This document shows positions 21,023 through 53,090 of a stretch of 64,000 nt of DNA, piece after piece. The first letter of the stretch is position 1. Each line of letters starts with the position of its first letter. Below the pieces are notes generated by a model. That model was given only the letters and a program-made list of their open reading frames with translations. It ran no database searches and was not told the DNA's origin. Origin of the DNA: Pseudomonadota bacterium (GTDB taxonomy: Bacteria > Pseudomonadota > Gammaproteobacteria > Burkholderiales > JAKAFK01); contig JAJYKK010000007.1 of NCBI GenBank assembly GCA_021788645.1, positions 1 through 64,000 of the forward strand. The letters run 5' to 3'. The translations under genes were made by a program, and so were the position numbers.

Positions 21023-22288
21023 ATGCAAAACCTGCTCTACCTGACCCACCGGATCCCTTATCCCCCCACCAAGGGAGACAAGATCCGCTCCTATCACGTA
21101 CTCAAACATCTGAGCACGCGCTATCGCGTCTATCTCGGCACCTTCGTCGACACGCCCGCGGACTGGGCACATGCCGATGCGGTGCGGGCCCTGTGCGCGG
21201 ACAGCTGCATCGTCAGGCTGCGCCCCTCGTGGGCCCGGATGAAAAGCCTGTTCGCCCTCGGCAGCGAACAGGCCCTGACCGTCCTCTACTACCGCAGCCA
21301 GCGACTCAAGCGCTGGGTCGACGACACGCTGCGCACCCAGGCGATCGAACGCATCCTCGTGTTCTCCTCGGCGATGGCCCAGTATGCGCTGGCGGCCGGG
21401 GACGCGCGGCGCATCATCGATTTCGTCGACATCGACTCCGACAAGTGGCGCCAATACGTGAGCCGCTCGCGCTGGCCGCAGCGCGCCCTCTACGAACGCG
21501 AACACCGCCTGCTCGCGCGCTACGAAAGGCGGATCAGCCGGCTATTCGAAGGCTCGCTCTTCGTATCGCGGGAAGAAGCCCAGCTCTTCAGCCGATTCGC
21601 CCCGGAAACGGCCGGGAAGACGGCCTACTTCGCCAATGGGGTCGATGCGGACTATTTCTCCCCCGCGCGCGAGTATGCCAATCCCTATCCCGATGCGGCT
21701 CAGGTGCTGGCGTTCACCGGGGCAATGGACTACTGGCCGAACGTCGATGCGGTCGAATGGTTCGCGCACGACGTCTTCCCCCTGATCCAGGCGCGCCACC
21801 CCGATGCGATCTTCTATATCGTCGGCGTTCGCCCCGCGCGCGCCGTGCGTGAGCTCTCCCGCCGCCGCGGCATCGTCGTCACCGGCGCGGTGCCCGACAT
21901 CAGGCCCTATCTCGCGCATGCACGGCTCGCCGTAGCGCCTCTGCGACTGGCCCGCGGCGTCCAGAACAAGGTCCTCGAAGCCATGGCCATGGGCAAGCCC
22001 GTGGTGGCCTCGCCCCAGGCCGCGGAAGGCATCGAAGCCGCGGCGGCAGGCTCCCTCCTGATCGCGCGACACGCCGACGACTACGTGACCCATGCGAGTC
22101 GCGTCCTGAGCGGCGCGGAGGCAAGTGCAGGCCGCCTGGCCCGCGACCACATCGTGCGCGCCTATGACTGGACCCGCAACCTGGCCACGCTGGAGGCCTG
22201 GCTCGAAGGCGCGAGTGACCGCAGCGCCTTGGGCCGAGCCTTCGGGGCGGCTCCCGGAACACTCGCGAGCGAAAGGAGCGCGCGATGA
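21023..22288 (+). CDS. Glycosyltransferase, XrtA-system type 1 (GT4)
   Basis: A 421-residue GT-B fold glycosyltransferase. The start NLLYLTHRIPYPPTKGDKIR is the hallmark of the exosortase-linked sugar transferase family TIGR03087 (from memory). The C-terminal nucleotide-sugar domain has the segment GVQNKVLEAMAMGKPVVASP with the conserved Glu of GT4 enzymes. It should add one sugar of the EPS repeat unit at the cytoplasmic face. The stop overlaps the exosortase start by 4 nt. Confidence 0.92.
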   Translation: MQNLLYLTHRIPYPPTKGDKIRSYHVLKHLSTRYRVYLGTFVDTPADWAHADAVRALCADSCIVRLRPSWARMKSLFALGSEQALTVLYYRSQRLKRWVDDTLRTQAIERILVFSSAMAQYALAAGDARRIIDFVDIDSDKWRQYVSRSRWPQRALYEREHRLLARYERRISRLFEGSLFVSREEAQLFSRFAPETAGKTAYFANGVDADYFSPAREYANPYPDAAQVLAFTGAMDYWPNVDAVEWFAHDVFPLIQARHPDAIFYIVGVRPARAVRELSRRRGIVVTGAVPDIRPYLAHARLAVAPLRLARGVQNKVLEAMAMGKPVVASPQAAEGIEAAAAGSLLIARHADDYVTHASRVLSGAEASAGRLARDHIVRAYDWTRNLATLEAWLEGASDRSALGRAFGAAPGTLASERSAR

Positions 22289-23889
22289 ACAATGCGCTAG
22301 GCGCCTTGGCCGAGCCCGCCGCCGGGACGCGCCCACAAGACAGCGCCCGCGCCTGGCGGCGCGTCGCGCTCATCGCGGGGATCACCCTCGCCGGGCTGCT
22401 GCTGCTCCATTGGCCGGTCGTGAGATTCACCTGGGACACCTGGGCCGACAACCAGACGTTCGCCCATGGCTTTGTCATCTTCCCCCTGAGCGGCTGGCTC
22501 GTCTGGCGGCGACGGCGCGAGATCATGGCGCTATCGCCCACGCCTCAATATTGGGCCCTGGCCCTCCTGGCGCTGGGCGGCTTCGCCTGGGAGCTCGGAT
22601 TTCTCGGCAAGGCCATCGTCGTCCAGCAGTATGCGCTGGTCGCCCTCATCCCGGCCGCCGCGCTCGCGCTCTTCGGCTACCGGGTGGTGCGCGCCATCGC
22701 CTTTCCGCTGTTCTACCTGTTCCTGGCGGTGCCCTTCGGGGAAATGCTGATTCCCCACATGATGGCCTGGACCGCGAACTTCACCGTCCTCGCGGTGCAG
22801 CACAGCGGCGTGCCGGTCTTCCAGCAAGGGCCGTTCTTCGAGCTGCCCAACGGCGACTGGTCGGTCGTCGAGGCCTGCAGCGGACTGCGCTACCTGATCG
22901 CCTCCTATACCCTGGGGCTGCTGTATGCCTACCTGACCTATCGCACGTTGTGGCGCCGCGTGCTGTTCGTGGGCGCCTCCGTCGCCGTGCCCGTGGTGGC
23001 GAACTGGCTTCGGGCCTACATGATCGTCATGATCGGCTATCTGAGCAACATGCGTCTTGCGGTGGGGATCGACCACATCATCTACGGCTGGATCCTGTTC
23101 GGCATCGTCATGGCCTTGCTTTTCTGGCTCGGTTCCTTGTGGCGAGAAGATCTCACGCCGGGGCAGGACGCCCCAGCGGCCGCCTCACCCGCAACCTGCC
23201 CCCGGCTGGTCCCTATCGGGCTCGCGGCAGCGGCCGTCCTCGCGGTGTCGGCCCTCTTTCCCGCCGACGCGCAGTTCCTCGCCAGGCGCCAGTCCGGGCC
23301 GGTCAACGTCACGCTCGCCGCCCCCCGCCCGGCGCCGGGGTGGGCGCCCTGGCTCGGCCCGGTCACGCCGTGGGTGCCCCATTTCAAGTACCCCCGCGCG
23401 ACGCTTGAGCGCACGTATGTCGCACACGGCGCCCTGGTCACGCTCTTCGTCTACTACTACCGCGACCAGACCCAGCGTTCCAAGCTGATCCGCTCGCAAA
23501 ACGTGATTCTTTCCACCAATCCTCAATACCGCAAACACTGGCAGAACATCGGACAGGCGATGCGGCGGCTGCCCCTGGACGCGGGCCGGCTGGGCATCGC
23601 CGAAAACCGCCTGCGCGGACGCCCGCCGCTCCATCTCCTGGTCTGGCACTGGTTCTGGATCGATCACCGCTTCACGACCAACCCGTATCTCGTGAAGTTT
23701 CTCGAAGCCAAGTCCATGCTGCTGGGGAAAGGGGACGACGCGGCGCTGGTCGTCATGGCCACCCCTTATGCCGGCAAGGGCGATGCGCGCGCGGAAAGGA
23801 CCCTGCGCGCCTTCGCCGCCGCCTGGGCATCGCCAATCCGCGCCGCGCTCCAGCGCACGGCGGCACAAGCCGACGGAGGCCGCGGGTGA
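22285..23889 (+). CDS. xrtA: Exosortase A fused to an EpsI domain
   Basis: A 534-residue inner-membrane protein. The N-terminal 300 residues have about eight membrane segments with the exosortase catalytic triad: Cys198 in VEACSGLRYL, Arg243 in NWLRAYMIV and His264 in GIDHIIYGW. The C-terminal region (about 315-534), starting with one further hydrophobic segment, is an EpsI/DUF3485 domain. Exosortases cleave PEP-CTERM sorting signals and transfer proteins to a surface anchor. The fusion fits the XrtA subgroup. The gene overlaps both neighbours by 4 nt. No PEP-CTERM protein is visible in the window. Confidence 0.95.
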   Translation: MNNALGALAEPAAGTRPQDSARAWRRVALIAGITLAGLLLLHWPVVRFTWDTWADNQTFAHGFVIFPLSGWLVWRRRREIMALSPTPQYWALALLALGGFAWELGFLGKAIVVQQYALVALIPAAALALFGYRVVRAIAFPLFYLFLAVPFGEMLIPHMMAWTANFTVLAVQHSGVPVFQQGPFFELPNGDWSVVEACSGLRYLIASYTLGLLYAYLTYRTLWRRVLFVGASVAVPVVANWLRAYMIVMIGYLSNMRLAVGIDHIIYGWILFGIVMALLFWLGSLWREDLTPGQDAPAAASPATCPRLVPIGLAAAAVLAVSALFPADAQFLARRQSGPVNVTLAAPRPAPGWAPWLGPVTPWVPHFKYPRATLERTYVAHGALVTLFVYYYRDQTQRSKLIRSQNVILSTNPQYRKHWQNIGQAMRRLPLDAGRLGIAENRLRGRPPLHLLVWHWFWIDHRFTTNPYLVKFLEAKSMLLGKGDDAALVVMATPYAGKGDARAERTLRAFAAAWASPIRAALQRTAAQADGGRG

Positions 23890-32215: not shown

Positions 32216-32246
32216 GCCCCGGGCTCGGCGGATGAAGGAGGAACCC

Positions 32247-33245
32247 ATGATCTTGGAGACACCGCGCGGCGCGGCGAACCCGGCGGATTCGCAGCCGCAG
32301 GCATCGCCCCCGTTTTCCGACCTCGCCTGCGAGCCCTTCTTCATCGTCGGCTTCCAGCGAAGCGGAACCACGCTCCTTCGGATGATGCTGAACGCGCATC
32401 CGGCGCTCGCCATTCCCCACGATTCGGGGGAGCTGTGGGCCTCGTACTGGGAAGCGGCCCATAACGCGCTCGGCAGCGAGCAGGCGGTGCGCGGCTTCAT
32501 GGAACGTCTGGCCCGCGATGCGCGCATCCGCGCCTGGAAGACGGACTTGCCCGGCGCGATGCTTTTTGCGCCGCCGCTGCCCACCGACTTCGCCGGGGTC
32601 ATGAGGCGTTTTCACGGCGTCTATGCCCACCTGCAGGGCAAACCGCGCTGGGGTGACAAGAACACCGGCAGCCTCGTCGAACTCGATCGCCTGAACGCCC
32701 TCTTCCCTTCGTCCAGGTTCATTCATCTGGTGCGGGACGGACGCGATTGCGCCTTGTCGCACTTGAGCAAGGAATACGTCTATGGCTACCCCAACGTGCT
32801 CCGGGTCGCCCACGAATGGCGCGAGCAGGTGGGCTTGTGCCGAAAAATGGGCGCCATGCTGCCGGCCACGCGGTACATGGAAGTGCGTTACGAGGACCTC
32901 GTCCAGGCCCCTCCGGCGTGCCTCGCCCAGGTGTGCGCGTTCCTGGGCATCGCCTATGCGCCCGAGATGCTGGACTACACGGGCCAGGTCAAGCGGTTCG
33001 TTCCCGAGGAAAAGCGGGGGCTTTGGCCCCTCCTCGACAAACCGCCGATGGCGTCCAACGTGGCGAAGTGGAGGCGTCATATGCGGGCGGCTGACCGGGC
33101 CGTCTTCGAGCGGCACGCCGGGTCGCTGTTGCACGAACTCGGCTACGAAACTCTCGTGCCGCCGGTGAACGAAGGACGCTGGCTGGAACTGTGGTACGAG
33201 CTTCACAGCCGACTCGCCTGGCGGCTGCGGGCGAGCCGGCAGTGA
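32247..33245 (+). CDS. Sulfotransferase, copy 1
   Basis: A 332-residue PAPS-dependent sulfotransferase. The 5'-phosphosulfate loop is in VGFQRSGTTLLRMML (residues 34-48), and the 3'-phosphate-binding segment RFIHLVRDGRDCALSHL starts near residue 157. It should transfer sulfate to a hydroxyl or amine of the EPS or a lipid intermediate. ATG 32247 has a strong AAGGAGG 5 nt upstream, which decides the start over the ATG at 32232. It ends the first packed run of EPS genes, just before a decayed TnpB copy. Confidence 0.9.
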   Translation: MILETPRGAANPADSQPQASPPFSDLACEPFFIVGFQRSGTTLLRMMLNAHPALAIPHDSGELWASYWEAAHNALGSEQAVRGFMERLARDARIRAWKTDLPGAMLFAPPLPTDFAGVMRRFHGVYAHLQGKPRWGDKNTGSLVELDRLNALFPSSRFIHLVRDGRDCALSHLSKEYVYGYPNVLRVAHEWREQVGLCRKMGAMLPATRYMEVRYEDLVQAPPACLAQVCAFLGIAYAPEMLDYTGQVKRFVPEEKRGLWPLLDKPPMASNVAKWRRHMRAADRAVFERHAGSLLHELGYETLVPPVNEGRWLELWYELHSRLAWRLRASRQ

Positions 33246-40132: not shown

Positions 40133-42385
40133 TCACCCCGCCTGGACCCGTTCGCCGCCGGGCCCTTGTTCGGTGAGGAAGACCCTTCGTTCGGGCCAAG
40201 CGACGCTTCGCCCCTCGAGCCAGCGCAACTCGCCCGCCGTGCCTTCCGCCGTTCGCGCCCAGAGCAGTGTCCCTTCGAATCGAATGCCGAAGGCTTCGAC
40301 CGTCCCTTGCGCCGGCGCATCGTTCAGCAAGAGACAGTCCACCCAGTGCGGCGTGCTCACCCTGAAGGCCAGCCTGGCCCCATCGATGCGCAGGACTTCG
40401 ATCCGCGCATCCTCCAGGCCCGAACATCCGATCAGGGTGGCGACAAGGGTCGCGCCCGCCTCGACGCGGACCCTGATCGCGGATGCCGGGACGCGCACGC
40501 CATAGGTCGGGGACACCCATCCCGCGACCGGGTCGAGGCTCCCGCGCAGCGTCGCCGCATCCGACAGGCCATCGCTCAGCACCACGGTCAACCGCGATTT
40601 CCCTGCGCTGGCGGCCACATGATGCGGGCTTGTCTCCTCGACGTGCACCCGTGCCCCGAACTGGAAGGAAAGGTGGGCCGCGGCCTGCCCCAGGCCGTCG
40701 GGCACCACGTCGTAGATCAGCCAGTAGCGCTCCCGCACATGGACGATGCCGCGCCGATGCCCAAAATAGGGCGTGCGGCCCCGATTCACGGCCTCCACCC
40801 AGGCCAGTCCCGGTCCTTCCCGGTGCACGGAAGTATGCAGGCGCGTGGGCACATCGCGCGGCCGGAAGTCTCCCGCCACCGATCCCAACGGGTCGGAGCC
40901 CTCGATCGACAAGCCGCTATGGGCTGACGGACCGAGGAAGTGGCGGCGCCAGTCAACCGCCGCCGACGGCGTGCGCCGATAGGTGTAGGTTCCCGGCTCG
41001 ACAATGAACGGCACGCTATCGAGGGTCAGATAGACCGTGAGCAGGTCCGCGTGCATGTGGCCCCCGCTCGCCTCGACGCCGGGCGCGGGACCGGTGCGAA
41101 AGACGAGCGTGGCCTTCGAAGCGGGCTCGGGGAAGCCGTAGTATCCGCCGATGGGGTAGGCGCGCAGGGCGGGCGGGCGCACCGTCGTCCCCTCGGGCAT
41201 CGTCCCCCCCAGCAGCCAGAACGCGGTTTCGGCATCCCCCCCCTCCCCGTCGGCCGCCTCGGCACACCGGCCGAAAAGCGCCCCGGCAAGGCGGGCGAAG
41301 TCGCCCTGCCCCGCGCAGGCGCCCAACGGGAACAAGCCATCACCCGTCCCATCCCCCAGGTGAAGCCCATCGCCTTGCGTCCCGTTGATCTCGCATTGGA
41401 AAGCCAGCATGCGCTCGAGGCGCTCCGGCAGCCATTCGGGTGGCGCCGATCCGTTCGCGCGGGTGAGCAGGAGATATGCGGCCGCACTCTCGCACGCCAT
41501 GCGATGGTAATGCATGGAGAATTCAAAGCCTGAGCCGTCATCGAACACCTGTCGCCGAAGCTCCCGCAACCAGATCTCCTCGCCGCGCGCGCGCCAGCCA
41601 GGCGCCTCGGCAAACTCCGGAAACAAGAAGCCCACGTACCACAGAAAGAAGGCGCTCAGGAGCAGATGGTTGTTCGGACACGACCGCGCCAGTTCCTTGG
41701 AAACGTAGCGGGCATCGACTAGTATTACTTTGAGTATCGACACAATGAGGTCGTGTGCCTCTGTCGGCCAAGCCGCGAGGAAAGCCAAGGCCCAGGTGAG
41801 CGCAATGGCGCGCTGGACGGCGACAAGATCGCTCGCGTAGCCCGGCGGATCGGCCCTCGCTTCGGTCGCCGCCATCCAGGATGACACCATGCGGGAGAGC
41901 GCCGGGCCATGGTCCGCGCCATAGAGGACCGCGAGCGCGAGCCGGGGCGCAAAGAAAAACCGATGGGGCTTCAAGAGGTAGAGGGGATCCTCCCCGGGGC
42001 CCGGCTTCAAGCGATCCCAGGTCAGGTCCGCGCCGAGGTCGGCGTGCGTGCCGTAGACGGTGAAGATATGCCTTGCTTCTTGGGCCGCCAGCGCCATGGC
42101 CGTCTCCCGCCAGGCGGGAAAGCGCGCCTCGATCGTGGCAAGGGCCCGGCCTATGCCCGGGGAATCGATGAAGAAGCGCGGGGCCGTCCGTCCGCGCCAA
42201 TAGGCCGCAAGCGCGCACCTTGCGGAGTGCGCCCCCCGGTCCCTTGCGGGGCGTGCCGCGCCCCGCAAGGAGGCGTAGAACGCCGCGTCCGACGGGAAAC
42301 GGCGGCGAAGCGGGCGGCGGGTGAATGGCCATCGCCGAAGCCAGGCTTCACTTGATTTTCGGAAGAGACTCAAAACATTCGACAT
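40133..42385 (-). CDS. Heparinase II/III-like polysaccharide lyase
   Basis: A 750-residue protein. An N-terminal (alpha/alpha) toroid region (about 100-400) includes SCPNNHLLLSAFFLWYVG and FEFSMHYHRMACESA. A beta-sandwich half opens with the family motif GGHMHADLLTVYL near residue 443. This is the heparinase II/III and alginate lyase architecture found in many exosortase EPS loci. It would cut acidic polymer chains, perhaps as an editing or release enzyme. No clear signal peptide is visible at the chosen ATG 42385. The frame is open upstream into the next gene without conservation. It is the only minus-strand gene between 13 and 47 kb. Confidence 0.85.
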   Translation of the reverse strand: MSNVLSLFRKSSEAWLRRWPFTRRPLRRRFPSDAAFYASLRGAARPARDRGAHSARCALAAYWRGRTAPRFFIDSPGIGRALATIEARFPAWRETAMALAAQEARHIFTVYGTHADLGADLTWDRLKPGPGEDPLYLLKPHRFFFAPRLALAVLYGADHGPALSRMVSSWMAATEARADPPGYASDLVAVQRAIALTWALAFLAAWPTEAHDLIVSILKVILVDARYVSKELARSCPNNHLLLSAFFLWYVGFLFPEFAEAPGWRARGEEIWLRELRRQVFDDGSGFEFSMHYHRMACESAAAYLLLTRANGSAPPEWLPERLERMLAFQCEINGTQGDGLHLGDGTGDGLFPLGACAGQGDFARLAGALFGRCAEAADGEGGDAETAFWLLGGTMPEGTTVRPPALRAYPIGGYYGFPEPASKATLVFRTGPAPGVEASGGHMHADLLTVYLTLDSVPFIVEPGTYTYRRTPSAAVDWRRHFLGPSAHSGLSIEGSDPLGSVAGDFRPRDVPTRLHTSVHREGPGLAWVEAVNRGRTPYFGHRRGIVHVRERYWLIYDVVPDGLGQAAAHLSFQFGARVHVEETSPHHVAASAGKSRLTVVLSDGLSDAATLRGSLDPVAGWVSPTYGVRVPASAIRVRVEAGATLVATLIGCSGLEDARIEVLRIDGARLAFRVSTPHWVDCLLLNDAPAQGTVEAFGIRFEGTLLWARTAEGTAGELRWLEGRSVAWPERRVFLTEQGPGGERVQAG

Positions 42386-42440
42386 GGGCGTGCAGGCTGT
42401 CCTAACAATCAGGCTGGATCCGGAAAAACGATAACGCGAC

Positions 42441-43346
42441 ATGACATCCGCACGCGAGCAGGGATCGGCGCCGTTCTTCGTGGTGGGGGCGCAGCGATCG
42501 GGCACCACGATGCTTCGGCTCATGCTCAATGCGCACCCGAGGCTGTGCGTACCGTTCGAGTCCGGCTTCATTATAGACTTCCATGACCGCCGCGATGGCT
42601 ACGGGGCGCTTTCCGTCAAAGATAACGCCGCCCGTCTCCTGGACGACATCGCGGCGCACCCGAAGGTCAGGAAGGGCGGCCTTATCACCGACCGCGACGC
42701 CATCCTGGCCCGCCCGATCGAAGACTACGCCGATCTCGTCGACGCCATCTTCTCCGCCTACGCCGAGGACAAGGGAAAGCCGCGCTGGGCGGACAAGACG
42801 CCCTGGTACGTGACCGAGATCGACAAGCTGTGGGGGCTTTTCCCTTCGGCACGCATCATCCATCTCGTGCGCGACGGACGCGATGTCGCCTTGTCGCTGC
42901 GCAACCTGGACTGGGGCTCACGCCACCTGCCGCGGGTTGCCGCCGATTGGCGCTGGAAGACCACCCTCGCGCACAAGGTGGGTTCGGTGGTGCCGACGCG
43001 TTTTCTTGAGGTGCGCTACGAGGATTTGGTGCTGCAAACGCAACCCACGTTGGAACGGATCTGCGCGTTCGTCGGAGAGGCGTTTGATCCGGGGATGCTC
43101 GCGTTCCATCGCAACGCCGAGCAGGAGATGCCCCAGGACAGCGTGAAATACCACCGGAACTCGGTGCGTTCGCCGAACAAGGAAAAGGTCTACGCCTGGA
43201 AGGAACGCATGTCGTCCGCCGACCGGATCATTTTTGAGCAGATCGCCGGCGCCGAGCTCTCGCTGTTCGGCTATGAACGCGAAGACCGGCCGAGCACCTG
43301 GATGAGTCGGCTCAAGAACTTCTATTATTGCGCCAAGCGCTGGTGA
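42441..43346 (+). CDS. Sulfotransferase, copy 2
   Basis: A 301-residue PAPS-dependent sulfotransferase with VGAQRSGTTMLRLMLN at 15-30 and ARIIHLVRDGRDVALSLRNL starting near 137. It resembles copy 1 at both PAPS-binding motifs but differs elsewhere, so it probably has a different acceptor. It is divergent from the heparinase-like gene, with 55 nt between the starts, and leads a second plus-strand run. Confidence 0.9.
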   Translation: MTSAREQGSAPFFVVGAQRSGTTMLRLMLNAHPRLCVPFESGFIIDFHDRRDGYGALSVKDNAARLLDDIAAHPKVRKGGLITDRDAILARPIEDYADLVDAIFSAYAEDKGKPRWADKTPWYVTEIDKLWGLFPSARIIHLVRDGRDVALSLRNLDWGSRHLPRVAADWRWKTTLAHKVGSVVPTRFLEVRYEDLVLQTQPTLERICAFVGEAFDPGMLAFHRNAEQEMPQDSVKYHRNSVRSPNKEKVYAWKERMSSADRIIFEQIAGAELSLFGYEREDRPSTWMSRLKNFYYCAKRW

Positions 43347-43361: not shown

Positions 43362-44615
43362 ATGCGCCACGTCTTGGTCATCGCCTTCCACTACCCGCCC
43401 GAAGCGAGCAGCAGCGGCGTCCTGCGGACCCTCAAGTTCACGCGTTATCTGCCCGAGTATGGGTGGCGGGCCACGGTGGTGACCCTGCGCCGCGATGCAT
43501 ATGAAACGACCGATCCCGGGCTGGAAGCCCAGATTCCGGAACCGGTGCGCGTGGTGCGCACGGGTTACCTCAACACCAAGCGCCATCTGGCCATCAAGGG
43601 TCGCTATCCCGCCCTGCTCGCGGTCCCCGATTCCTGGATCGGATGGCTCCCCTGGGCGGTCGCCGCCGGACGGCGCGTGCTGCGCGAGGATCCTGCGCAG
43701 ATGATCTATTCGACCAGCCCCCATGCCACCGCGCACCTGATCGGGGGCCGCCTTTCCCAGGCGGCGGCACTCCCGTGGGTGACGGACTTCCGTGATCCAT
43801 GGTACGAGGAGCCGCCCGAACCCGGCACGCCGGCGCTCGTCCATTGGTCCGCGCGCCACCTGGAGAGGAACAGCATCGCGCGGGCAGGCCATGTCGTCAC
43901 CAGCACGGCGCACCTCGGGGCCATGCTGCGAGGCCGCTATCCCGGCCAGCCCGCGGGGAAATTCACGACCATCGCCAACGGCTTCGACGAGGCTGACTTC
44001 GGCGGACCGAGGGAACGCCGCCGGCGCGGCGACGGCAAGCTCCTCTTTGTGCACACGGGCGCCATCCATCCCGGGTTTCGTGACCCACGCCCCTTGTTTC
44101 GCGCGATCCGCGCCCTGGACGGCCTCATCGACACGTCGGTGCTTGCTTTTCGCTTCATCGGCGCGGGCGAGTTCGGCGAATCCGGCGCCATGGCGCAATG
44201 CCTCGCCGAGACGGGGCTCACCCGCCAAGTCGCCTTCCTGCCGCGGATCGCCTATGCCGCAGCCCTTGACGAGCTCGCCCAAGCGGACGTGGGCTTGCTG
44301 CTGCAAGCCTCCGAAGACACCACCGGCCTTGTTCCGGCAAAACTCTACGAGTACCTGCGAAGCGGCAAGCCGGTGCTCGCCCTGACCCTGCCCGGCGCCA
44401 GCGCCGAGGTGCTCGCGGAAACGTCGGGCGGTTGGGCGATCAACCCGCTCGATGGGCCCGCCCTGAGCGCAGCGCTGCTTGAGATTCACCGTTTCTGGTC
44501 CGCCGAGGCGCTCGAGCGCTGCTGCGCGCAGCCCGGTTCGCTTGCCCCCTTCGAACGTCGACGGCTGACCGGCAAGCTCGCCGACGTCTTCCAGTCGCTT
44601 GCGGCAAAGGACTGA
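43362..44615 (+). CDS. Glycosyltransferase (GT4-like)
   Basis: A 417-residue GT-B enzyme. The start HVLVIAFHYPPEASSSGVLRT is the acceptor loop of a common GT4 group. TTGLVPAKLYEYLRSGKPVLAL is the donor-side motif with its conserved Glu. It follows the sulfotransferase by 15 nt. The specific sugar is unknown. Confidence 0.88.
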   Translation: MRHVLVIAFHYPPEASSSGVLRTLKFTRYLPEYGWRATVVTLRRDAYETTDPGLEAQIPEPVRVVRTGYLNTKRHLAIKGRYPALLAVPDSWIGWLPWAVAAGRRVLREDPAQMIYSTSPHATAHLIGGRLSQAAALPWVTDFRDPWYEEPPEPGTPALVHWSARHLERNSIARAGHVVTSTAHLGAMLRGRYPGQPAGKFTTIANGFDEADFGGPRERRRRGDGKLLFVHTGAIHPGFRDPRPLFRAIRALDGLIDTSVLAFRFIGAGEFGESGAMAQCLAETGLTRQVAFLPRIAYAAALDELAQADVGLLLQASEDTTGLVPAKLYEYLRSGKPVLALTLPGASAEVLAETSGGWAINPLDGPALSAALLEIHRFWSAEALERCCAQPGSLAPFERRRLTGKLADVFQSLAAKD

Positions 44616-44617
44616 GC

Positions 44618-45412
44618 ATGGCCGGGAGCCCGAAGCGGGAAGCAAGCGGCCGGGATACCGTTCCGACGACGACGATGCCCGCCGCCGAAGCACGCTGGCG
44701 CACCCTGTTCGAGGGTTTTGCGCGCGCGGGCGAAGACGATGCGGCCATCGCCGGCTGGTCGCCCACCGGGCTTGCGGCGCGCTTCCGGAACTTCACGCGG
44801 CTATGGCCGGGCGATGCCGCCGGCAGCCGATGGCTGGATGCCGGCTGCGGCGCGGGCACCTACGCCCGGTTCCTCGCAAGCCGCGGCGTCCAAGTCGTGG
44901 GCGTGGATTACTCCCTGCCGACCCTCGCCAAGGCGAAAGCAAGAGCGCCGGCGGGACTGGTGTTCGCCGCGGCGGACGTCACCCGGCTTCCCTTTCGGCC
45001 CGAGAGTTTCCGGGGCGCCCTGTGCTTCGGCGTCACGCAGGCCCTCGCCGATTCGAATCGCGCCGTGCGGGCGCTTTGCGACGTGGTGGAACCGGGCGGC
45101 GAGATTTGGATGGATGCCCTGAACGGCTCGTGCCTGCCGAATCTGGCCGACCGGCTGGCCAGATGGTGGAAGGGCAAGCCGCCGCACGTCCGCTACGAAT
45201 CGCCCGGCAACCTGCGGCGCATCATGAAACAGTGCCGGATGCACCATGTGCGGCTTTACTGGGTGCCGATCCTGCCCGAACGCTGGGCGCGCTGGCAGCC
45301 TTTGGTGGAAGCGCCGGCCGTCCGCGGGGTGTTGCGGCTCCTGCCGGGGTTCGCCGCGCTTTTCAGCCACGCGTTCGTGCTCTCGGGCCGGGTGGGAGAG
45401 GCCCGCAGATGA
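44618..45412 (+). CDS. Class I SAM-dependent methyltransferase (type 11)
   Basis: A 264-residue methyltransferase. Motif I is RWLDAGCGAGTYARFL (71-86), with VVGVDYS as the acidic strand and VVEPGGEIWMDALNG as the post-core strand. It probably methylates an EPS sugar or lipid-linked intermediate. It starts 2 nt after the glycosyltransferase and overlaps the next deacetylase (ATGA). Confidence 0.85.
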   Translation: MAGSPKREASGRDTVPTTTMPAAEARWRTLFEGFARAGEDDAAIAGWSPTGLAARFRNFTRLWPGDAAGSRWLDAGCGAGTYARFLASRGVQVVGVDYSLPTLAKAKARAPAGLVFAAADVTRLPFRPESFRGALCFGVTQALADSNRAVRALCDVVEPGGEIWMDALNGSCLPNLADRLARWWKGKPPHVRYESPGNLRRIMKQCRMHHVRLYWVPILPERWARWQPLVEAPAVRGVLRLLPGFAALFSHAFVLSGRVGEARR

Positions 45413-46416
45413 GGATGGCGCGCCCCCTCAAGGATGCCCTGCTGGCGGTGGCAAGCCATACCCTGCTGCCCCGCGGCACGCGCGGCCGGGCCTCCATCCT
45501 CATCTATCATCGGGTCCTGCCGCGGCCGGACCCGATTCGCGACTGGGAGATCGACGCCGCCACCTTCGACGCCCAGATGGCGATGCTCGCGCAGCGTTTT
45601 GCACCGCTGCCGCTCGCGGAGGCGGTCGCCCGCCTGCGCGCGGGCGTGCGCTTGCCCGAGCGTGCGGTGTGCGTGACCTTCGACGACGGCTATGCGGACA
45701 ACGTCTCGGTCGCGCTGCCGCTCTTGCAGCGCCATGGCATTCCGGCGACGTTTTTTGTCGCGAGCGGCTACCTCGATGGAGGACGCATGTGGAACGACAC
45801 GGTGATCGAAGCCATCGCCCGGAGCCCCCGGACAAGCCTGGACCTTGCCGATATCGGCTTGGGGGTACTGCCCCTGGCGAGCGCGCAGGAGCGCAAGGCC
45901 GCCATCGGCGCGCTGCTCCCCGCGCTCAAGCATTTGCCCTGGGAGCAGCGCGAGTCGCACGCCAGCGCCATCGCCCAGGCGGGGGGGGCGCGGCTCCCGG
46001 ATGACCTCATGCTGCGCTCCGAGGACCTGCTCGCGCTCGCGGCCGCCGGCATGGACATCGGCGGCCATACCTGCGGCCACCCCATCTTGCGCAACCTCTC
46101 GCCCGACCGCGCGGAACGCGAGATGGCCCGGGACCGCGATCGCCTGGCACACATCGTCGGCCGCCCGATCAAGCTTTTCGCGTATCCGAACGGCAAGCCG
46201 GGCAACGACTATCTTCCGGAACATGTCGCGATGGCGAAGGCCCTCGGCTTCGCGGCGGCGGTATCGACGGTGCGCGGTGCCGTCGATCGGACGAGCGACC
46301 CCTATCAGCTGCCGCGCTTCACCCCCTGGGACAGATCTCCCCGTCGCTTTGCACTGCGCCTGTTGGACAACTTCAGGCGAACGCCGGGCGGCCGACACCA
46401 CCCGCAACATTCCTAA
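45409..46416 (+). CDS. Polysaccharide deacetylase, copy 2 (NodB domain)
   Basis: A 335-residue protein with a NodB-type domain. VTFDDGYADN contains Asp92 and Asp93, and GGHTCGH supplies His220 and His224 for the metal. The start LIYHRVLPRPDPIRDWEI resembles the PgaB/IcaB class, but no signal peptide is visible. A 70-residue insertion (about 125-200) splits the usual spacing between the Asp and His motifs. It differs clearly from the XrtA-type deacetylase at 19112 and may be specific for another sugar. Confidence 0.87.
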   Translation: MRMARPLKDALLAVASHTLLPRGTRGRASILIYHRVLPRPDPIRDWEIDAATFDAQMAMLAQRFAPLPLAEAVARLRAGVRLPERAVCVTFDDGYADNVSVALPLLQRHGIPATFFVASGYLDGGRMWNDTVIEAIARSPRTSLDLADIGLGVLPLASAQERKAAIGALLPALKHLPWEQRESHASAIAQAGGARLPDDLMLRSEDLLALAAAGMDIGGHTCGHPILRNLSPDRAEREMARDRDRLAHIVGRPIKLFAYPNGKPGNDYLPEHVAMAKALGFAAAVSTVRGAVDRTSDPYQLPRFTPWDRSPRRFALRLLDNFRRTPGGRHHPQHS

Positions 46417-46433: not shown

Positions 46434-47543
46434 ATGGACCGCTGGATCTTGTTGGCCACCCTCGTCCTGGGCGCCCTCGGGGGCATCCCCCGCGCCGCAC
46501 ACGCAGCGCTTCCCTTTCCGGATCTGCCGACCAACCGATGGGTTCCCGTCCGTGTGGTCTGCCGAGGAGGGCTCGCGTCCTACTTCAACGGCTGTCCCGC
46601 CCCACGGGGCTGGCTCCAGCTGGCATACGATACGCGGCGGCACCGGGTGGTCATGTTCGGCGGCAGCGGGGGGTGGTATTACAATGATCTGTGGCAATTC
46701 AACCCGCTCACCCGGGTCTGGCGCCTCAAGATCCAGGACACGCGGCTTGCCGGGGAGAAAAAGGACTGGGCGGTCTATCCCAAGGGCCGCGACAACCACG
46801 AATTCGTCTATGACCCCGTCCATGACGTGTTCTGGATGTATGGGGGAACCGGCGGTGGCGGCTTCTGGAAATTGACCGCCTCGAACGATGCCTGGACGCG
46901 GATGCCGGGACGCCATGACGGGAAATCCCTGCCCAACGCCGCGCTCGATCCGGGCTTCGCACTCGATGCCGCCGACAACGAAATCCTGCTCTTCGGCGGC
47001 GAGCGGGCGAGCTATTATGACGGAACCTGGCTGTTCAACACCCAACAGCAGAAGTGGGAGCACCTCCATCCCAAGATCTCGCCGCCCGCCCGGGCGCAAA
47101 CCGAAAATGCCATGGTCTACGACCCCGACGACAAGGAGTTCATCCTTTTCGGGGGCCTGACCACCAGGAGAGTGCTCCTTAACGACACCTGGGTCTTCAA
47201 GATGGGTTCACGCACCTGGGTCAGGATGCATCCTAGCGTCTCCCCGCCGCCACGGGACCGCCACATGATGGTGTACGACGAGACCGACCGGCGCGTCATC
47301 CTGTGGGGCGGGGCTCCGACGGCCGATACCTGGGTGTACGATCCCCGCCGGGACACCTGGCAGGAGGTCCGCGCGGCCCGGGGAAGTTACCACGCCGCCC
47401 TGTCCCCGAAGGCCGCGGGGGTCTATTGTCCGGACCTGGACCTCACCGTCTACCGCGATCTTTCAGGGCAGGTCTATTTCTTCCGTCTCGACCTGGCGAC
47501 GCTGGACCGCAAGGCGGCCGGCAGCCCCCGCTGGCGACCGTGA
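46434..47543 (+). CDS. Secreted six-bladed kelch propeller protein (Sec signal)
   Basis: A 369-residue protein. The signal peptide ends AAHA around residue 24. Six kelch-like repeats follow, each with a pattern such as YDTRRHRVVMFGG ... DLWQFNPLTRVW; further blades read YDPVHDVFWMYGG, DAADNEILLFGG, YDPDDKEFILFGG and YDETDRRVILWGG. No catalytic domain is attached, so this looks like a binding or scaffold propeller in the periplasm or outside. Four cysteines, two near the mature N-terminus, could form disulfides. It lies 17 nt after the deacetylase and faces another kelch gene tail-to-tail. Function is unknown. Confidence 0.82.
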   Translation: MDRWILLATLVLGALGGIPRAAHAALPFPDLPTNRWVPVRVVCRGGLASYFNGCPAPRGWLQLAYDTRRHRVVMFGGSGGWYYNDLWQFNPLTRVWRLKIQDTRLAGEKKDWAVYPKGRDNHEFVYDPVHDVFWMYGGTGGGGFWKLTASNDAWTRMPGRHDGKSLPNAALDPGFALDAADNEILLFGGERASYYDGTWLFNTQQQKWEHLHPKISPPARAQTENAMVYDPDDKEFILFGGLTTRRVLLNDTWVFKMGSRTWVRMHPSVSPPPRDRHMMVYDETDRRVILWGGAPTADTWVYDPRRDTWQEVRAARGSYHAALSPKAAGVYCPDLDLTVYRDLSGQVYFFRLDLATLDRKAAGSPRWRP

Positions 47544-47552
47544 ATGCGCGCT

Positions 47553-47570
47553 CGGAGCGTTCTGGCTCCG
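47553..47570. terminator. Convergent hairpin between the two kelch genes
   Basis: A perfect 6-bp repeat, CGGAGC/GCTCCG, with a 6-nt loop, flanked by outer GCGCGC arms that can also pair. It lies inside the 56-nt gap between the two stop codons. No T-run is present. Confidence 0.4.
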
Positions 47571-47599
47571 GGTGGCGCGCCCGCGGAATGTCGCGTTTG

Positions 47600-48667
47600 C
47601 TAGCTCAAGCGCAACAGAAACATGTAGGGGTTGGCCGGGACCACCCCCCCCAGGAGCACGGTCTGGCGCGTACCCGGGTGGTAAACCATGCAGTTGGCCA
47701 TGGGTTTGGCGACGCCGGGGATGTCGACCGGCAATTGCGCCCACCGGCCCGAGCCGATGTTGTAGAGCCAGACTTCGGGCGGGAAATAGGCCCAGGAACC
47801 GAATTTGGCGAAGACCAGGCTATTGTGCGAGGCGTCGAAGACAAAGTTCGTCTCTTCCATCCGGCCCGGGTCGAAGCCCATGGGACACACGTCGGTCATG
47901 CTGCGCTCATCGATATCGTAGCGGCTCAACTTCTTGTAGCGGTTATCGATGCAATAGATGTGGCGGTCGACCTTCGCCGTGTAGTTTCCCGACATGTAGC
48001 GATTGCCGCCAAATGGGTACAGTTTCCATTTTCCGGTCGCCGGATAGAAAACACAGGCGCTGTCGTTGTTGAACATGACAATGGAATCGGTTGCGTCGTC
48101 ATATTGGGCGAATTTCCGCAAGCCCCCCATCGGGGGCAAGGGATCTTGAGGTGCCACTGACCAGACTCTCGCCGTCGGGTCGAAAGACATGACCTTGTTG
48201 TGGACGGTATCGCCGCAGTTCCTGGCGGGCTCGACGGTGGCGAACTCAAACCCTGGCAACATCCAGAACACCTTTCGCTTGGTGTCGAACGTCCAGCCGA
48301 CTTGAACAGGATGCAGGGGTTGAATTTCGCCGTGCGGCGCACAATAAGGGAATTCCGAACGCCACTGGTTCGTGTTGACCTCGTAGGAATAGAGCGCCTG
48401 TTGCCCCGACTCATAGAACTGCGGAGGACCCACATAGTCCCCTCCGCAAAAGTAGATGCGTTGGTTGACCGGGTCCACGGCAAGCCGGGTGTGCTTCATT
48501 GCGCCGGTGGGTCCCGTACCGACAACCGTGGGCATTCTTCTGGCTGCCCAGATCCCGGCGCTGCTCGGGAGCAGCGGGGACTGGGCCGCATGCACCAAGG
48601 CCTCGGGCAGCAACGAGGCGGCAATTCCGGACACCAATGCGGCATTGAAGCGTCTTCTGCTGGTCAT
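47600..48667 (-). CDS. Kelch-like propeller protein with Tat-type signal
   Basis: A 355-residue protein. The N-terminus TSRRRFNAALVSGIAAS fits the twin-arginine consensus, with a cut near VHA-AQ around residue 28. About six blades follow, with kelch-like strand patterns (DPVNQRIYFCGGDY, DTKRKVFWMLPG, DDATDSIVMFNN, DASHNSLVFAKFG, GTRQTVLLGG). AGGAGAG lies 7 nt before ATG 48667, which decides this start over an upstream TTG at 48673. Tat export implies folding in the cytoplasm. By eye the gene is less GC-rich than its neighbours. No catalytic domain is seen and the function is unknown. Confidence 0.78.
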   Translation of the reverse strand: MTSRRRFNAALVSGIAASLLPEALVHAAQSPLLPSSAGIWAARRMPTVVGTGPTGAMKHTRLAVDPVNQRIYFCGGDYVGPPQFYESGQQALYSYEVNTNQWRSEFPYCAPHGEIQPLHPVQVGWTFDTKRKVFWMLPGFEFATVEPARNCGDTVHNKVMSFDPTARVWSVAPQDPLPPMGGLRKFAQYDDATDSIVMFNNDSACVFYPATGKWKLYPFGGNRYMSGNYTAKVDRHIYCIDNRYKKLSRYDIDERSMTDVCPMGFDPGRMEETNFVFDASHNSLVFAKFGSWAYFPPEVWLYNIGSGRWAQLPVDIPGVAKPMANCMVYHPGTRQTVLLGGVVPANPYMFLLRLS

Positions 48668-48811: not shown

Positions 48812-50689
48812 CTATCCGCCGACGCCGCGATGCGGCTCACGCAGGGAGACCACGGCCTGCTCGTGGGCACGCGCCCACTGCTCCAGCATCATGAGCACCC
48901 ACACCATCGTGCCGTAGTAGCCCGCATGCGCTCCAAGATGGGTGGCGGTCAACTCGTCGATGAAGGCGGGTCGGACGATTCCGCGGCCCTTGAGGGCGCT
49001 CAGGCTGTCGAAGGCAAGCTCCCGCAGGGGCTGGTGGGTGCGCAGCCACAACCCGAAGGGGAGCCCGAAGCCGTGCTTTTGCTTCTGGATGATTTCCCGG
49101 GGCAGGAAGTCGCGCAATGCCGCCTTGAAAAAGAAGCGCAGCCGGGTGCCCTTGAGCTTGAGGCGCGGCGGCAGGGCCAAGGCGAAATCCAGCACGGCCG
49201 GCTCGAGCAGCGGGAAAGCGACGTCGATGCCCGCAAGCTCGCACATGCGGGTCACCTTGGGCAAGTCGTTGTCGGCCAGGGTGAATTTGAAGTCCAGGGC
49301 AAGCATGCGGTTGATCAGGCTGTTCGCGCCGGGCGCACCGTACGACGCGCCCATGAGCTTCAGCGGGCGGGCGGTGTCCACCGTCGCCAGGAACTCTCGC
49401 GTGAAGACGTTTTCCGGCCCGAAACGCTGGAGAAGATTGTAGGTCTCATAGCGCTCCGGCATTGGCACCGAGGCCTGCTCGATGTAGCGGCGCAGCTTGC
49501 GCAGCAAGGGAAGACGACCGCCGTAGGGGAACGCCTGGACCACCGGCTCGATCAACCGTCGGCGCAGGGGTTCGGGCAGGAGGCCATAGAGGGAAAAAAC
49601 GTATTGCGTCGCATAGCGTGCATTGCCGCCGAAGAGCTCATCGCCGCCGTCGCCGCCCAATAGCCGCGTCGCGCCGTCCTCTTTGGCGAACTTGGCGCAA
49701 AGATAGGTCGGCACCGCCGAAGCGTTGCCGAAGGGTTGGTCGTAGATCTGGGCGATCCGGGGAATGGCGGCGACCACGTCCGAGGGCGTGACATAGTATT
49801 CCCGGTGCCGCGTGCCGAAGTGTGACGCGGCGATCCGCGCATAACCCGTCTCGTCGTATCCGGGGGCGTCGAAGCCGATGGAATAGGTGCGGGCCGGGCG
49901 CCCCGCCGCCTCCCCTAACAGGCCGCTGACGGTCGAGCTATCGGTGCCGCCGCTCAAAAAAGCGCCCGTGGTCGCCCCCCCGGCCAGCGCCTCGACGCTC
50001 TCCCGCAAGGCCGCCCGGAATGGCGGCTTGAACTGGCGCACGCCCCCGGCGGCCTGTTCGGCAAACCGCAGCTGCCAGTACTGTTGCACGTGCAGGTGCC
50101 CGCGCCGAAAGAGAACGAATTGGCCCGGCAAGAGCCGCACCTGACCGCGGAAGGCCGTCTGCGGGCCCGGCACCATGTGGAAATAGACGTAGTCATAGAG
50201 GCTTTGCGCCTCCATTTCCGCCTGCGTTGCGGGGTGCGCGGCAATGGCCTGCGCCGTCGACCCGAAGACGAGCGTGCCGCCCGCGCTTTGATAGAGCAAA
50301 GGGCGAACGCCCGACCGGTCCACGGCGAGCAGCAGCTCGTGCCGGTCTTCGCGCAGCAGGGCCAGGGCAAAATCCCCGTGAATCAACCCTAGTGCCTGCG
50401 GGCCGCGCCATTCGTAGGCCTGCGCCAGCTGGCCGGCCTCCACCGCCCCCTCGAACGGCGCCCCCGCCGCCCACCGGGGATGTCCCACGAGGGCAGCCAC
50501 GACGTGCGCGCCGCGGTATGCCGAAGCGGTATCGCCCAGTCCCGCAGCGCCGATCGCCCCTTCGGCGCAGGCGAGCGTCTGGGCGCGAGCATGATCGAAC
50601 GCGGTCAGCGTGCGGCTCATCCCCTCCAGGAGCCGGCGATTGCCGGCTTCGCCGGCGCCGAAGCCGCACCACCCGCACAAGCCGCTCAT
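48812..50689 (-). CDS. Amidotransferase (asparagine synthase family), copy 2
   Basis: A 625-residue protein with the glutaminase-like N-terminal half and the synthetase half (FLSGGTDSSTVSG near 245, LLGGDGGDELFGGN near 345). The predicted N-terminus is MSGLCGWCGFG, so the cysteine that should be residue 2 is at position 5. A TTG codon at 50678-50680 would give MCGWCGFG, but GAGGTG is better spaced for the ATG at 50689. Glutaminase activity is therefore uncertain. The start overlaps the acyltransferase gene by 4 nt. It may amidate or otherwise ligate EPS components. Confidence 0.87.
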   Translation of the reverse strand: MSGLCGWCGFGAGEAGNRRLLEGMSRTLTAFDHARAQTLACAEGAIGAAGLGDTASAYRGAHVVAALVGHPRWAAGAPFEGAVEAGQLAQAYEWRGPQALGLIHGDFALALLREDRHELLLAVDRSGVRPLLYQSAGGTLVFGSTAQAIAAHPATQAEMEAQSLYDYVYFHMVPGPQTAFRGQVRLLPGQFVLFRRGHLHVQQYWQLRFAEQAAGGVRQFKPPFRAALRESVEALAGGATTGAFLSGGTDSSTVSGLLGEAAGRPARTYSIGFDAPGYDETGYARIAASHFGTRHREYYVTPSDVVAAIPRIAQIYDQPFGNASAVPTYLCAKFAKEDGATRLLGGDGGDELFGGNARYATQYVFSLYGLLPEPLRRRLIEPVVQAFPYGGRLPLLRKLRRYIEQASVPMPERYETYNLLQRFGPENVFTREFLATVDTARPLKLMGASYGAPGANSLINRMLALDFKFTLADNDLPKVTRMCELAGIDVAFPLLEPAVLDFALALPPRLKLKGTRLRFFFKAALRDFLPREIIQKQKHGFGLPFGLWLRTHQPLRELAFDSLSALKGRGIVRPAFIDELTATHLGAHAGYYGTMVWVLMMLEQWARAHEQAVVSLREPHRGVGG

Positions 50690-51957
50690 GCAGACACCTC
50701 GCCCGAGGATGGGGAGAACGCGCGCATCCGCGCGCGCAGGTGCCGCGCCGCGGGGCGCAGGACAAAGTCGACGAGGGCGAGGAGCGTGCCGGCAACCGTG
50801 GCCCCATAGGCCGTCATGCCGTAGACAGGCTCAGCGCTCTCGGTCCAGCGGCGCTTATAGGCATTTCTTCCGGGGCCCATGGCGTAGCGCGCGAGGGACT
50901 GGCCGAACAACCCCTCGAGGAGCTTCCAGTTGAGATAGGATCCGACGGAAAGCTCGGGCACGGAGTCGTCGAAATCCGCGCGCAAGGCGTGCACCTGACC
51001 GTCGAACATCAGCTGATATTCGCCCGCCAAGGGCTTGCCATCCACGTGGCACAGCCAGATCGACAGCCAGCCGCGCGCCCGCGCCAGCTGCGTGAGCCGG
51101 CGGATGAAGGCCCCTGGCCCGAGTCTATCCAGGGTCGTGCCGGTCGCGTGCTTCCAGCTGCGCGACGAAATGTCGATCAAGCTCGCCAAGGCCTCCTCGA
51201 CGCTCGCCTGCGGGGCATCCGCCCGTATCTGCGCGACCTGGGCGATACCGTGCGCCTTGAGGCGATTGGCGACAAGGTTGTTGCTTTTCTTGAGCCGGCG
51301 GCTGCGTCCCGCGTAAAACTCCCGCCAGCCCGTGGTGAGCGCGATGAAGGGATTTTCGCCCTGGCGCCGCACGCTCGCGCGCACGCCCCGCGAGGCCAAG
51401 GCCTGGGCCAACGCGCTCTTGGCTGCCGAATCTTCGTGCAGATAGCCCAGCACGACCAGGTCCCATTGCCTGCGCGTGGCGTGAAGGGCTTCGGCCACCG
51501 CCCTGGCGACGACGACGCGGTCCTCGGGTGCGGCCAGGAGATCGCACCATTGGGTGTCCGGCACGGTCAGGAACTCCAGGGTCCGGAGGCGCAGCCCGGC
51601 GCGCCTTCGCCGGTAGCGCACCATGGGACACAGGCCGATGAGCGCCGCGCCGCGATAGACGCACAGCACCCTCAGGCGCCCATGCGCCTTCTGCCATTCC
51701 CAGGCCGCATCGAACCACTCGTGCATCAAGAAGACGAAGGTGGGAAGGGTCTGCGTGGCCAATCGGTTCCATTCCTCGCGCAGGGCATGAAAACCCGCCG
51801 CGTGCCTCACCCAGGTGACTTGCACAGGCGCCGAGTCCGCGTCCCCGATCGGCCGGGATCGCCCCAGCGCCAACAGGCGACTCGCCACCCCGCGCGCCTT
51901 GCCCGCCGGTCTTGGAAGCACCCCGGCCGGCCCGTCCTCCACCCGGACATCACCCAT
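50686..51957 (-). CDS. GNAT-fold acyltransferase, CelD/BcsL type
   Basis: A 423-residue protein with the CelD/BcsL-type acetyltransferase domain. TFVFLMHEWFDAAWEWQ, LRVLCVYRGAALIGLCPM, and the C-terminal GEYQLMFDGQVHALRADFDD and RYAMGPGRNAYKRRW are the family landmarks. It is related in fold to FemAB proteins. Such proteins accompany cellulose and other EPS operons and probably N- or O-acylate sugars. It lies between the TPR and amidotransferase genes in one minus-strand operon. A C-terminal hydrophobic stretch (about 380-400) could bind membrane. Confidence 0.82.
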   Translation of the reverse strand: MGDVRVEDGPAGVLPRPAGKARGVASRLLALGRSRPIGDADSAPVQVTWVRHAAGFHALREEWNRLATQTLPTFVFLMHEWFDAAWEWQKAHGRLRVLCVYRGAALIGLCPMVRYRRRRAGLRLRTLEFLTVPDTQWCDLLAAPEDRVVVARAVAEALHATRRQWDLVVLGYLHEDSAAKSALAQALASRGVRASVRRQGENPFIALTTGWREFYAGRSRRLKKSNNLVANRLKAHGIAQVAQIRADAPQASVEEALASLIDISSRSWKHATGTTLDRLGPGAFIRRLTQLARARGWLSIWLCHVDGKPLAGEYQLMFDGQVHALRADFDDSVPELSVGSYLNWKLLEGLFGQSLARYAMGPGRNAYKRRWTESAEPVYGMTAYGATVAGTLLALVDFVLRPAARHLRARMRAFSPSSGEVSA

Positions 51958-51963
51958 GGCCCG

Positions 51964-52725
51964 TCAGCCCTGGCCTTGCGCGACCGGGGCAGCGGATGCT
52001 GGCCGCGCCGCCACGGGCTTCCATGCGCCGACCTTCTCCAGCTTGAGCCGGAGCCCCGCCAATGTGGAACCGAGCGCGTAGGCGCGGTGGGCCTCTTCGT
52101 TCGCCGACCGGTAGCGCTTCTCGGAGAATAAGGCCAAGCCCAGGTCGTAGTGGACGTCGGCGGCATCGGGGTTCAAGGCGAGGCTCTTCTGGTACTGGCG
52201 GACGGCTCGCACCGTCTGCCCGGTGTCGGCGAGAAAGATGGCATCGACCGCGTGCACTGCGGCGCAACGGGGGCAGAAGCGAAGCGCGGCCTGCAAATAG
52301 GGCATCGCGTCCTGCGGCCTGTGGGCGCGCAGGGCGAGACCCAACATCAGCATGAGGGCCTGGGGGTCATCGGGCACCCAGCGAAGGATGAAGTCCAGTT
52401 GATTGTGCGCGCACACGTAGCGGTTCTGCGCCATGCATCTGAGCGCCGGGTTCCAGTGGTATTGCATGACCACCGCGATCCGGTGCACGGAGTGCGGATC
52501 GGTGGCGTAATAATCGAACTGGCGGTCGGTCGCGTTCTGGCTGAAGCCGCGCAGGGACTCGGCATGCGCCGGGGCCGCCGCGCCCAACGCGGCCGCGAGG
52601 CCCAGCCCCGCAAGGATGCCCGCCGCTCGCCGCAGGCGCTTGACGCGCCCCATCCACGGCGCAGGTTTCAGGCGCGACATCCCGGCATGCACCCCCGGGT
52701 GCGCCAATGCTATCTTGCTGATCAT
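51964..52725 (-). CDS. Exported TPR-repeat protein
   Basis: A 253-residue protein. A hydrophobic segment ending APAHAES (residues about 33-56) looks like a signal peptide or anchor. TPR-like helices follow, such as QALMLMLGLALRAHRPQDAM, AVRQYQKSLALNPDAADVHY and DLGLALFSEKRYRSANEEA. AAGGAG lies 10 nt before ATG 52725; the internal starts at 52680 and 52653 would give a shorter, more classical signal peptide. It starts the operon TPR, acyltransferase, amidotransferase. It may be a periplasmic scaffold for EPS modification or export. Confidence 0.78.
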   Translation of the reverse strand: MISKIALAHPGVHAGMSRLKPAPWMGRVKRLRRAAGILAGLGLAAALGAAAPAHAESLRGFSQNATDRQFDYYATDPHSVHRIAVVMQYHWNPALRCMAQNRYVCAHNQLDFILRWVPDDPQALMLMLGLALRAHRPQDAMPYLQAALRFCPRCAAVHAVDAIFLADTGQTVRAVRQYQKSLALNPDAADVHYDLGLALFSEKRYRSANEEAHRAYALGSTLAGLRLKLEKVGAWKPVAARPASAAPVAQGQG

Positions 52726-53090
52726 TCGCGCGGTTCTCCTTGTACGGGAAGAGGTGGTGCGGCGATGTGTCGAAATCGCTTTCCTAGCATAGCACCGATT
52801 ATTCAGCGCGCACGCCGGCGCCCCGGGCCGGCGAATCGCGCCCGGAGGCGGGCCCCGACCTGTCGCTGTCGCCCAACGGGGAGTCAGCCCGGGGATGGCC
52901 TTTGGCGATTGCGGCAAGGCACCCCATGGCGCGCACCTCGCCGGGGGGCCTTCGAATTGCATTCCCGGCGCAGCATCCTATGATGGATAGTGCATGCGGC
53001 TGGCCAAGACAAGCACGGACGGGGGGTAGCCGCAAGGCCGCCGCTTTGGCGCCGTGCCGTGCCTCGAGAAACCGACTATCGATCACCACC
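52726..53090. other. Divergent intergenic region between the TPR and O-antigen-ligase genes
   Basis: These 365 nt separate two divergent genes and should hold promoters for both. AGCATA at 52786-52791 reads TATGCT on the minus strand and is a possible -10 for the TPR operon. No convincing -35 is seen. I see no reliable plus-strand promoter and no credible gene. Confidence 0.5.

Follow-up and report, generated by a model that had tools for sequence, protein, structure and literature searches.

Two genes encoding exported six-bladed kelch proteins face each other in the window (the whole stretch of 64,000 nucleotides that was analysed). KelA (369 aa, with a Sec-like signal peptide) is encoded at 46434..47543 on the plus strand and KelB (355 aa, with the twin-arginine motif SRRRF) at 47600..48667 on the minus strand, with 56 bp between their tails. 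This tail-to-tail pair had been reported in a first-pass annotation of the DNA, and the coordinates given there proved exact. The same annotation had described the two sequences as strongly different and free of enzyme domains, which was borne out: KelA and KelB share about 25% identity over 233 aa, and Pfam and NCBIfam scans detected no enzyme domain in either chain. No NCBIfam family accounts for KelA or KelB, except for a sub-threshold mutarotase match of KelA. The protein ends (...KAAGSPRWRP in KelA and ...NPYMFLLRLS in KelB) contain no PEP motif, and a C-terminal membrane helix with a basic tail was seen in neither protein. With no PEP-CTERM sequence at the end of either chain, the pair is not expected to be an exosortase substrate. 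The intergenic hairpin of the first-pass annotation is real but modest (z -2.4). It is GC-rich and lies in the 56-bp stretch at 47544..47599, and a stem re-forms with different bases in G001, the one further genome found for the genus (the congener). The hairpin lacks a T-tract and was not called as an intrinsic terminator.

The pair is located towards one end of an XrtA exopolysaccharide and protein-sorting locus. The XrtA gene set spans 13.3 to 27 kb of the window and was matched by TIGR03027, 3007, 3018, 3016, 3019, 3087, 3109, 3088 and 3108, plus TIGR03097, the ligase model, at 52.9 kb. The locus is anchored by the exosortase XrtA with an EpsI domain (22285..23889, plus strand; TIGR03109 4.6e-96, TIGR02914 2.1e-33). 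KelA closes a plus-strand run made up of a sulfotransferase gene (42441..43346; PF13469), a glycosyltransferase-like gene (43362..44615, inferred from its start and from its counterparts in other XrtA genomes), a SAM-dependent methyltransferase gene (44618..45412) and a polysaccharide deacetylase gene (45412..46416, with its match within the frame 44599-46413). The deacetylase gene is directly upstream of KelA, which starts 17 bp past it, and in G114, a genome from elsewhere in the class, the counterparts of the deacetylase and methyltransferase genes adjoin each other. KelB is the last gene of a minus-strand run that consists of a TPR gene (51964-52833), a gene for a GNAT/FemAB-like acyltransferase (50686..51957; PF13480), AsnB2, an asparagine-synthase-type amidotransferase (48812..50689; PF00733 1.9e-76), and then KelB itself. 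The acyltransferase gene overlaps AsnB2 by 4 bp, and AsnB2 orthologues are present in most of the XrtA-positive genomes tested. Genes close by include one with a heparinase-type match (40133-42505), one of the MBOAT type and one for a second sulfotransferase. Judged from these neighbours, the polymer of the locus would be amidated, partly deacetylated and sulfated. The occurrence of two sulfotransferase genes (32232-33245 and 42441-43346) and the heparinase-type gene within one XrtA locus suggests a sulfated polymer with its own degrading or trimming enzyme. Elsewhere in the genome from which the window comes, a second exosortase-like gene (G000:C82:22206-22991) scored 163 bits against an XrtA cut-off of 208 and is also found in the congener.

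Both proteins are kelch proteins by Pfam, as the first-pass annotation had proposed, and the six blades were read from the sequence in KelA and from a structural model in KelB. KelA is strongly supported: it matched PF24681 at 4.6e-30 and Kelch_4 at 1.7e-25 in four stretches, and it passed the curated cut-offs of PF24681, Kelch_4, Kelch_3, Kelch_6 and others. Its N-terminus, MDRWILLATLVLGALGGIPRAAHA, reads as a Sec signal. For KelB the Pfam support is moderate, with Kelch_6 above its cut-off (1.4e-7; 31.7 bits versus 25.3). An AlphaFold2 model of KelB, built from a 5-sequence alignment, reached a pTM of 0.70 and a mean pLDDT of only 63, and its predicted strands fall in six blades. Foldseek matched this model mainly to the kelch domains of MKLN1, KLHL17, KLHL20, Keap1 and KLHDC2 (best E 5e-12), with about 11-19% identity to the best solved kelch domains, and a propeller fold, on which the first-pass annotation depended, is therefore predicted for KelB.

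The first-pass annotation had assigned different export routes to the two proteins. The N-terminus of KelB, MTSRRRFNAALVSGIAASLLPEALVHA, fits S-R-R-x-F, and the SRRRF motif is followed by a hydrophobic stretch and then by an Ala-rich cleavage region. Similar motifs are rare in the background: among the ORFs of the collected loci that reach 200 aa or more, 2 of 435 have one. None of the Tat-signal models of NCBIfam or Pfam calls KelB, and the motif is what points to a putative Tat route. The difference between a Sec-like KelA and a twin-arginine KelB thus stands in the window at the level of the motif, but it is not constant across lineages, as described below. KelB was also correctly noted as less GC-rich than its surroundings: its GC content is 0.595 compared to 0.62-0.71 in the other genes of the locus, its GC3 is 0.775, and both values are the lowest among the tabulated genes.

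The congener (contig JAKAFK010000015.1, isolate WY1.bin91) carries a collinear XrtA locus whose DNA is 87-90% identical to that of the window, and KelA and KelB are 93-94% conserved in it. Relative to the congener, KelA has a dN/dS of 0.117 and KelB one of 0.093, which is the lowest among 22 locus genes; both genes are under purifying selection. The low GC content of KelB is common to the congener (0.598; dS about 0.39). The KelA gene of the congener is intact, and an apparent break was rejected since the TGA in question sits only two residues ahead of the normal end.

The wider distribution of KelB was investigated with its own sequence in 60 relatives and 369 genomes of the class, and with a family profile in 399 genomes of the order, 398 of the phylum and 149 relatives of the genome G504, in samples that overlap. 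Members were found in five genomes, two of them in one genus and most of them draft or binned assemblies. Beyond the window's genus, these are G114 and two genomes of the same order, G504 and G533. No Kel hit outside the genus was obtained among the 60 relatives. Profiles built with one lineage left out recovered the KelB of every lineage (E 2e-22, 1.5e-21, 9e-15 and 3e-9), which shows that KelB represents a real, if divergent, family, and a rare one. In the family alignment, 12 of the 19 invariant columns fall in blades 1-2 (p 6e-4), a count biased by an alignment that is reliable mainly in its N-terminal half. Searches by tblastn with KelB, the KelB of G504 and the G504 partner protein returned nothing from plasmids, and neither tblastn of KelB against phages nor a viral contig scan gave a match. 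With KelA as the query, 384 genomes of the order gave hits in the genus only, plus two weak matches that were general or spurious. Several candidates were rejected as members. L002 has 49% identity over 35 residues and sits in a multihaem cytochrome-like gene, the weak match in G676 runs through a stop within housekeeping genes, and the G078 protein is secreted and of the general kelch type. The protein of G561 is also of the general kelch type but has additional domains, and none of the window's locus genes are near it; at the start of its contig (L067/L069) lies a frame of 798 aa with a kelch-like start followed by apparent Ig-like and beta-helix parts, in an unrelated context.

In G001, G504 and G114, the KelB gene shares its contig with a full-score XrtA and is surrounded by other genes of the XrtA locus. 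The order on G504:C86 is export, PCP, kinase, OMP, FemAB, XrtA, glycosyltransferase and AsnB1, while G114:C41 carries stp1, XrtA, stp2 and AsnB1 together with counterparts of the deacetylase, the methyltransferase, AsnB2, the acyltransferase and the TIGR03097 ligase. XrtA is absent from the G533 genome. With XrtA at full score in 18 of the 60 relatives and a 60-kb locus assumed in a 4-Mb genome, an XrtA-locus position of KelB in two out of three independent lineages would arise by chance with a probability of about 6e-5, a rough estimate in which the locus size was set post hoc. The first-pass annotation had also placed the pair outside the known core set, and this held: in 12 other XrtA-positive genomes with AsnB2 orthologues, no KelA or KelB profile match was found in the 20 kb around AsnB2. 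Some of these AsnB2 genes are distant from XrtA, and Kel genes elsewhere in the 12 genomes are excluded by the whole-genome searches only. The Kel pair is not in the core XrtA set. Conservation beside XrtA in relatives was thus confirmed for KelB (G001, G504 and G114) but not for an orthologous KelA-KelB pair.

Every gene found for the KelB family adjoins, or is fused with, a gene for a second exported protein. In G114 a single protein of 852 aa begins with a kelch domain (Kelch_6 6.5e-14) and continues with the KelB-family domain; an alignment-free model of this fused protein had a pLDDT of 34. In G504 and G533 KelB is immediately preceded, on its own strand, by the gene for the other exported protein. 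The G533 partner is weakly kelch (Kelch_4 0.0018, below cut-off; blade profile 8e-6), and the G504 partner is marginal, with a blade-profile value of 0.0065 that is above all background ORFs and no match in Pfam or the PDB. A clear kelch assignment of the partner was obtained only for the window's genus and G114. No single sequence family unites the partners: none was recovered by a profile from which it had been left out, and hhalign gave probabilities of 12% and 5%. The leave-one-out test ruled out one conserved orthologous KelA-KelB pair; the conserved feature is a KelB that adjoins, or is continuous with, another exported, propeller-like protein.

The export signals of these proteins vary. 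The window has a Sec-like signal and a Tat motif, the fused G114 protein is Sec-like, and both G533 proteins have Tat-type starts; in this set the G533 partner was the only protein to pass the TIGR01409 cut-off. In G504 the partner has a Tat-type start, and no signal peptide can be seen on KelB. From PaoABC it is known that a protein lacking a signal can be carried through the Tat route by its partner (PMC4273604). Just before the signal-less KelB-family gene of G504 (L023, 9572-9619), a short signal-like peptide, MGFANRRVALCLGLV, is encoded out of frame, which may reflect an assembly error, a frameshift or decay. The adjacent KelB-family and weakly kelch genes of G533 (L022, 2907-5461), in the genome that has no XrtA, are flanked by transporter-type and dehydrogenase genes, which places such a pair in another setting.

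We propose, with about even confidence, that KelA and KelB are an accessory exported propeller pair that serves as a polysaccharide-binding or assembly factor of the XrtA locus; the pairing is supported, and the function is the probable one suggested by context. The two proteins would act jointly outside the cytoplasmic membrane, in a periplasmic or surface complex, either by forming a heterodimer or by contacting one ligand as two domains. Through their loop faces they may retain or display the exported polysaccharide or its carrier protein. Several observations count against this proposal: the G533 pair without XrtA, the lack of a partner sequence family, the small number of genomes (five, two of them of one genus), the missing signal peptide of the G504 KelB and, for the window's species, the difference in export routes, which makes assembly ahead of export less likely. 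A further reading, which we put forward tentatively as a possibility, is a hitherto undescribed two-propeller XrtA module in which KelB, with its blades 1-2 patch, would always work with a second exported propeller that is split, tandem or fused, the pair would bind or modify the exopolysaccharide of its own locus, and at least one partner would be exported pre-folded by Tat.

The main rival explanation, which we regard as somewhat unlikely, is that KelB is itself a polysaccharide-modifying enzyme, such as an oxidase, an epimerase or a lyase, with a metal or cofactor that would account for the Tat-type motif, and that KelA is its binding or specificity partner. Enzymes occur among kelch propellers. 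GlxA is reported to work with CslA in Streptomyces, an example of a propeller that serves polysaccharide deposition as an enzyme (PMC3543389, PMC4736821). The invariant columns concentrated in blades 1-2 also fit an enzyme; they include K58, H59, D77, Y108 and W135, and most of them lie at strand ends or beyond the strands predicted by the model. However, the KH and GGD-type residues are in part common to kelch proteins in general, the N-terminal bias of the alignment affects this count, and KelB matched no enzyme family in Pfam or NCBIfam.

KelA and KelB could instead be two unrelated accessory kelch proteins that are neighbours by chance and have separate jobs, for example as adhesins or as surface scaffolds for protein-protein contacts. 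The two genes lie on opposite strands in runs of their own and differ in export signal and GC content, and their low identity would likewise agree with this, as would partners that are not homologous by sequence across genomes. Yet a propeller or propeller-like gene is beside KelB in every lineage found and is fused to it in G114, and both window genes show collinear conservation and purifying selection, which makes chance proximity unlikely. A recent foreign insertion of KelB without a settled function would be consistent with the lowest GC and GC3 among the tabulated genes and with the great rarity of the family, but it is already disfavoured and very improbable: with the same low GC in both species, a foreign origin, if any, predates their split, and the dS and dN/dS of KelB indicate that the gene was present before the split and has been selected since.

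XrtA loci occur in many environmental bacteria and are tied to floc formation. The window resembles the XrtA/PEP-CTERM (EpsH) loci (Haft et al. 2006, PMC1569441) in its XrtA gene set, and KelB members of three lineages are in such loci, but the Kel genes are lacking around AsnB2 in the 12 other XrtA-positive genomes; the founding paper makes no mention of kelch or propellers. KelA and KelB share the fold and blade motif of the six-bladed kelch propellers, among them Keap1, KLHL17, KLHDC2 and MKLN1, but they are bacterial, exported and built of a single domain, with no BTB, BACK or F-box part. The Streptomyces protein GlxA, a galactose-oxidase-like propeller that acts with the glycan synthase CslA, is likewise an exported propeller genetically tied to polysaccharide deposition (PMC3543389, PMC4736821); it is a copper radical oxidase, whereas KelA and KelB share only kelch repeats with that family in Pfam. 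The cyclically permuted mutarotases of TIGR03548 and the NanM-type sialic acid mutarotases are bacterial kelch proteins that act on sugars, but KelA reaches only 20.5 bits against the TIGR03548 family cut-off of 243.2 in NCBIfam, and KelB has no match. In the literature covered, which left most subscription journals outside its scope, no text joined kelch with exosortase and exopolysaccharide, or with PEP-CTERM. The fold is known, while the KelB family and its place in XrtA loci appear to be undescribed. Being under strong selection and present as a fusion in a distant lineage, the Kel pair offers a concrete candidate, open to testing, for a factor that binds or modifies polysaccharide in these loci. 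It bears on how sorted proteins and polysaccharide come together outside the cell, and the fused G114 form could serve directly as a construct for structural studies.

The comparison with the congener also revealed local differences in rate among the genes of the locus. The stp2 glycosyltransferase gene (23886-25073) is 81% identical to its congener counterpart, with a dS of 0.43, compared to about 92% for its neighbours, which suggests local recombination or allele replacement. Beside KelB, the slowest gene, two genes rank among the fastest of the locus: the GNAT/FemAB-like gene (50686-51957) has a dN/dS of 0.35 and the TPR gene one of 0.27, with 76% identity for the latter.
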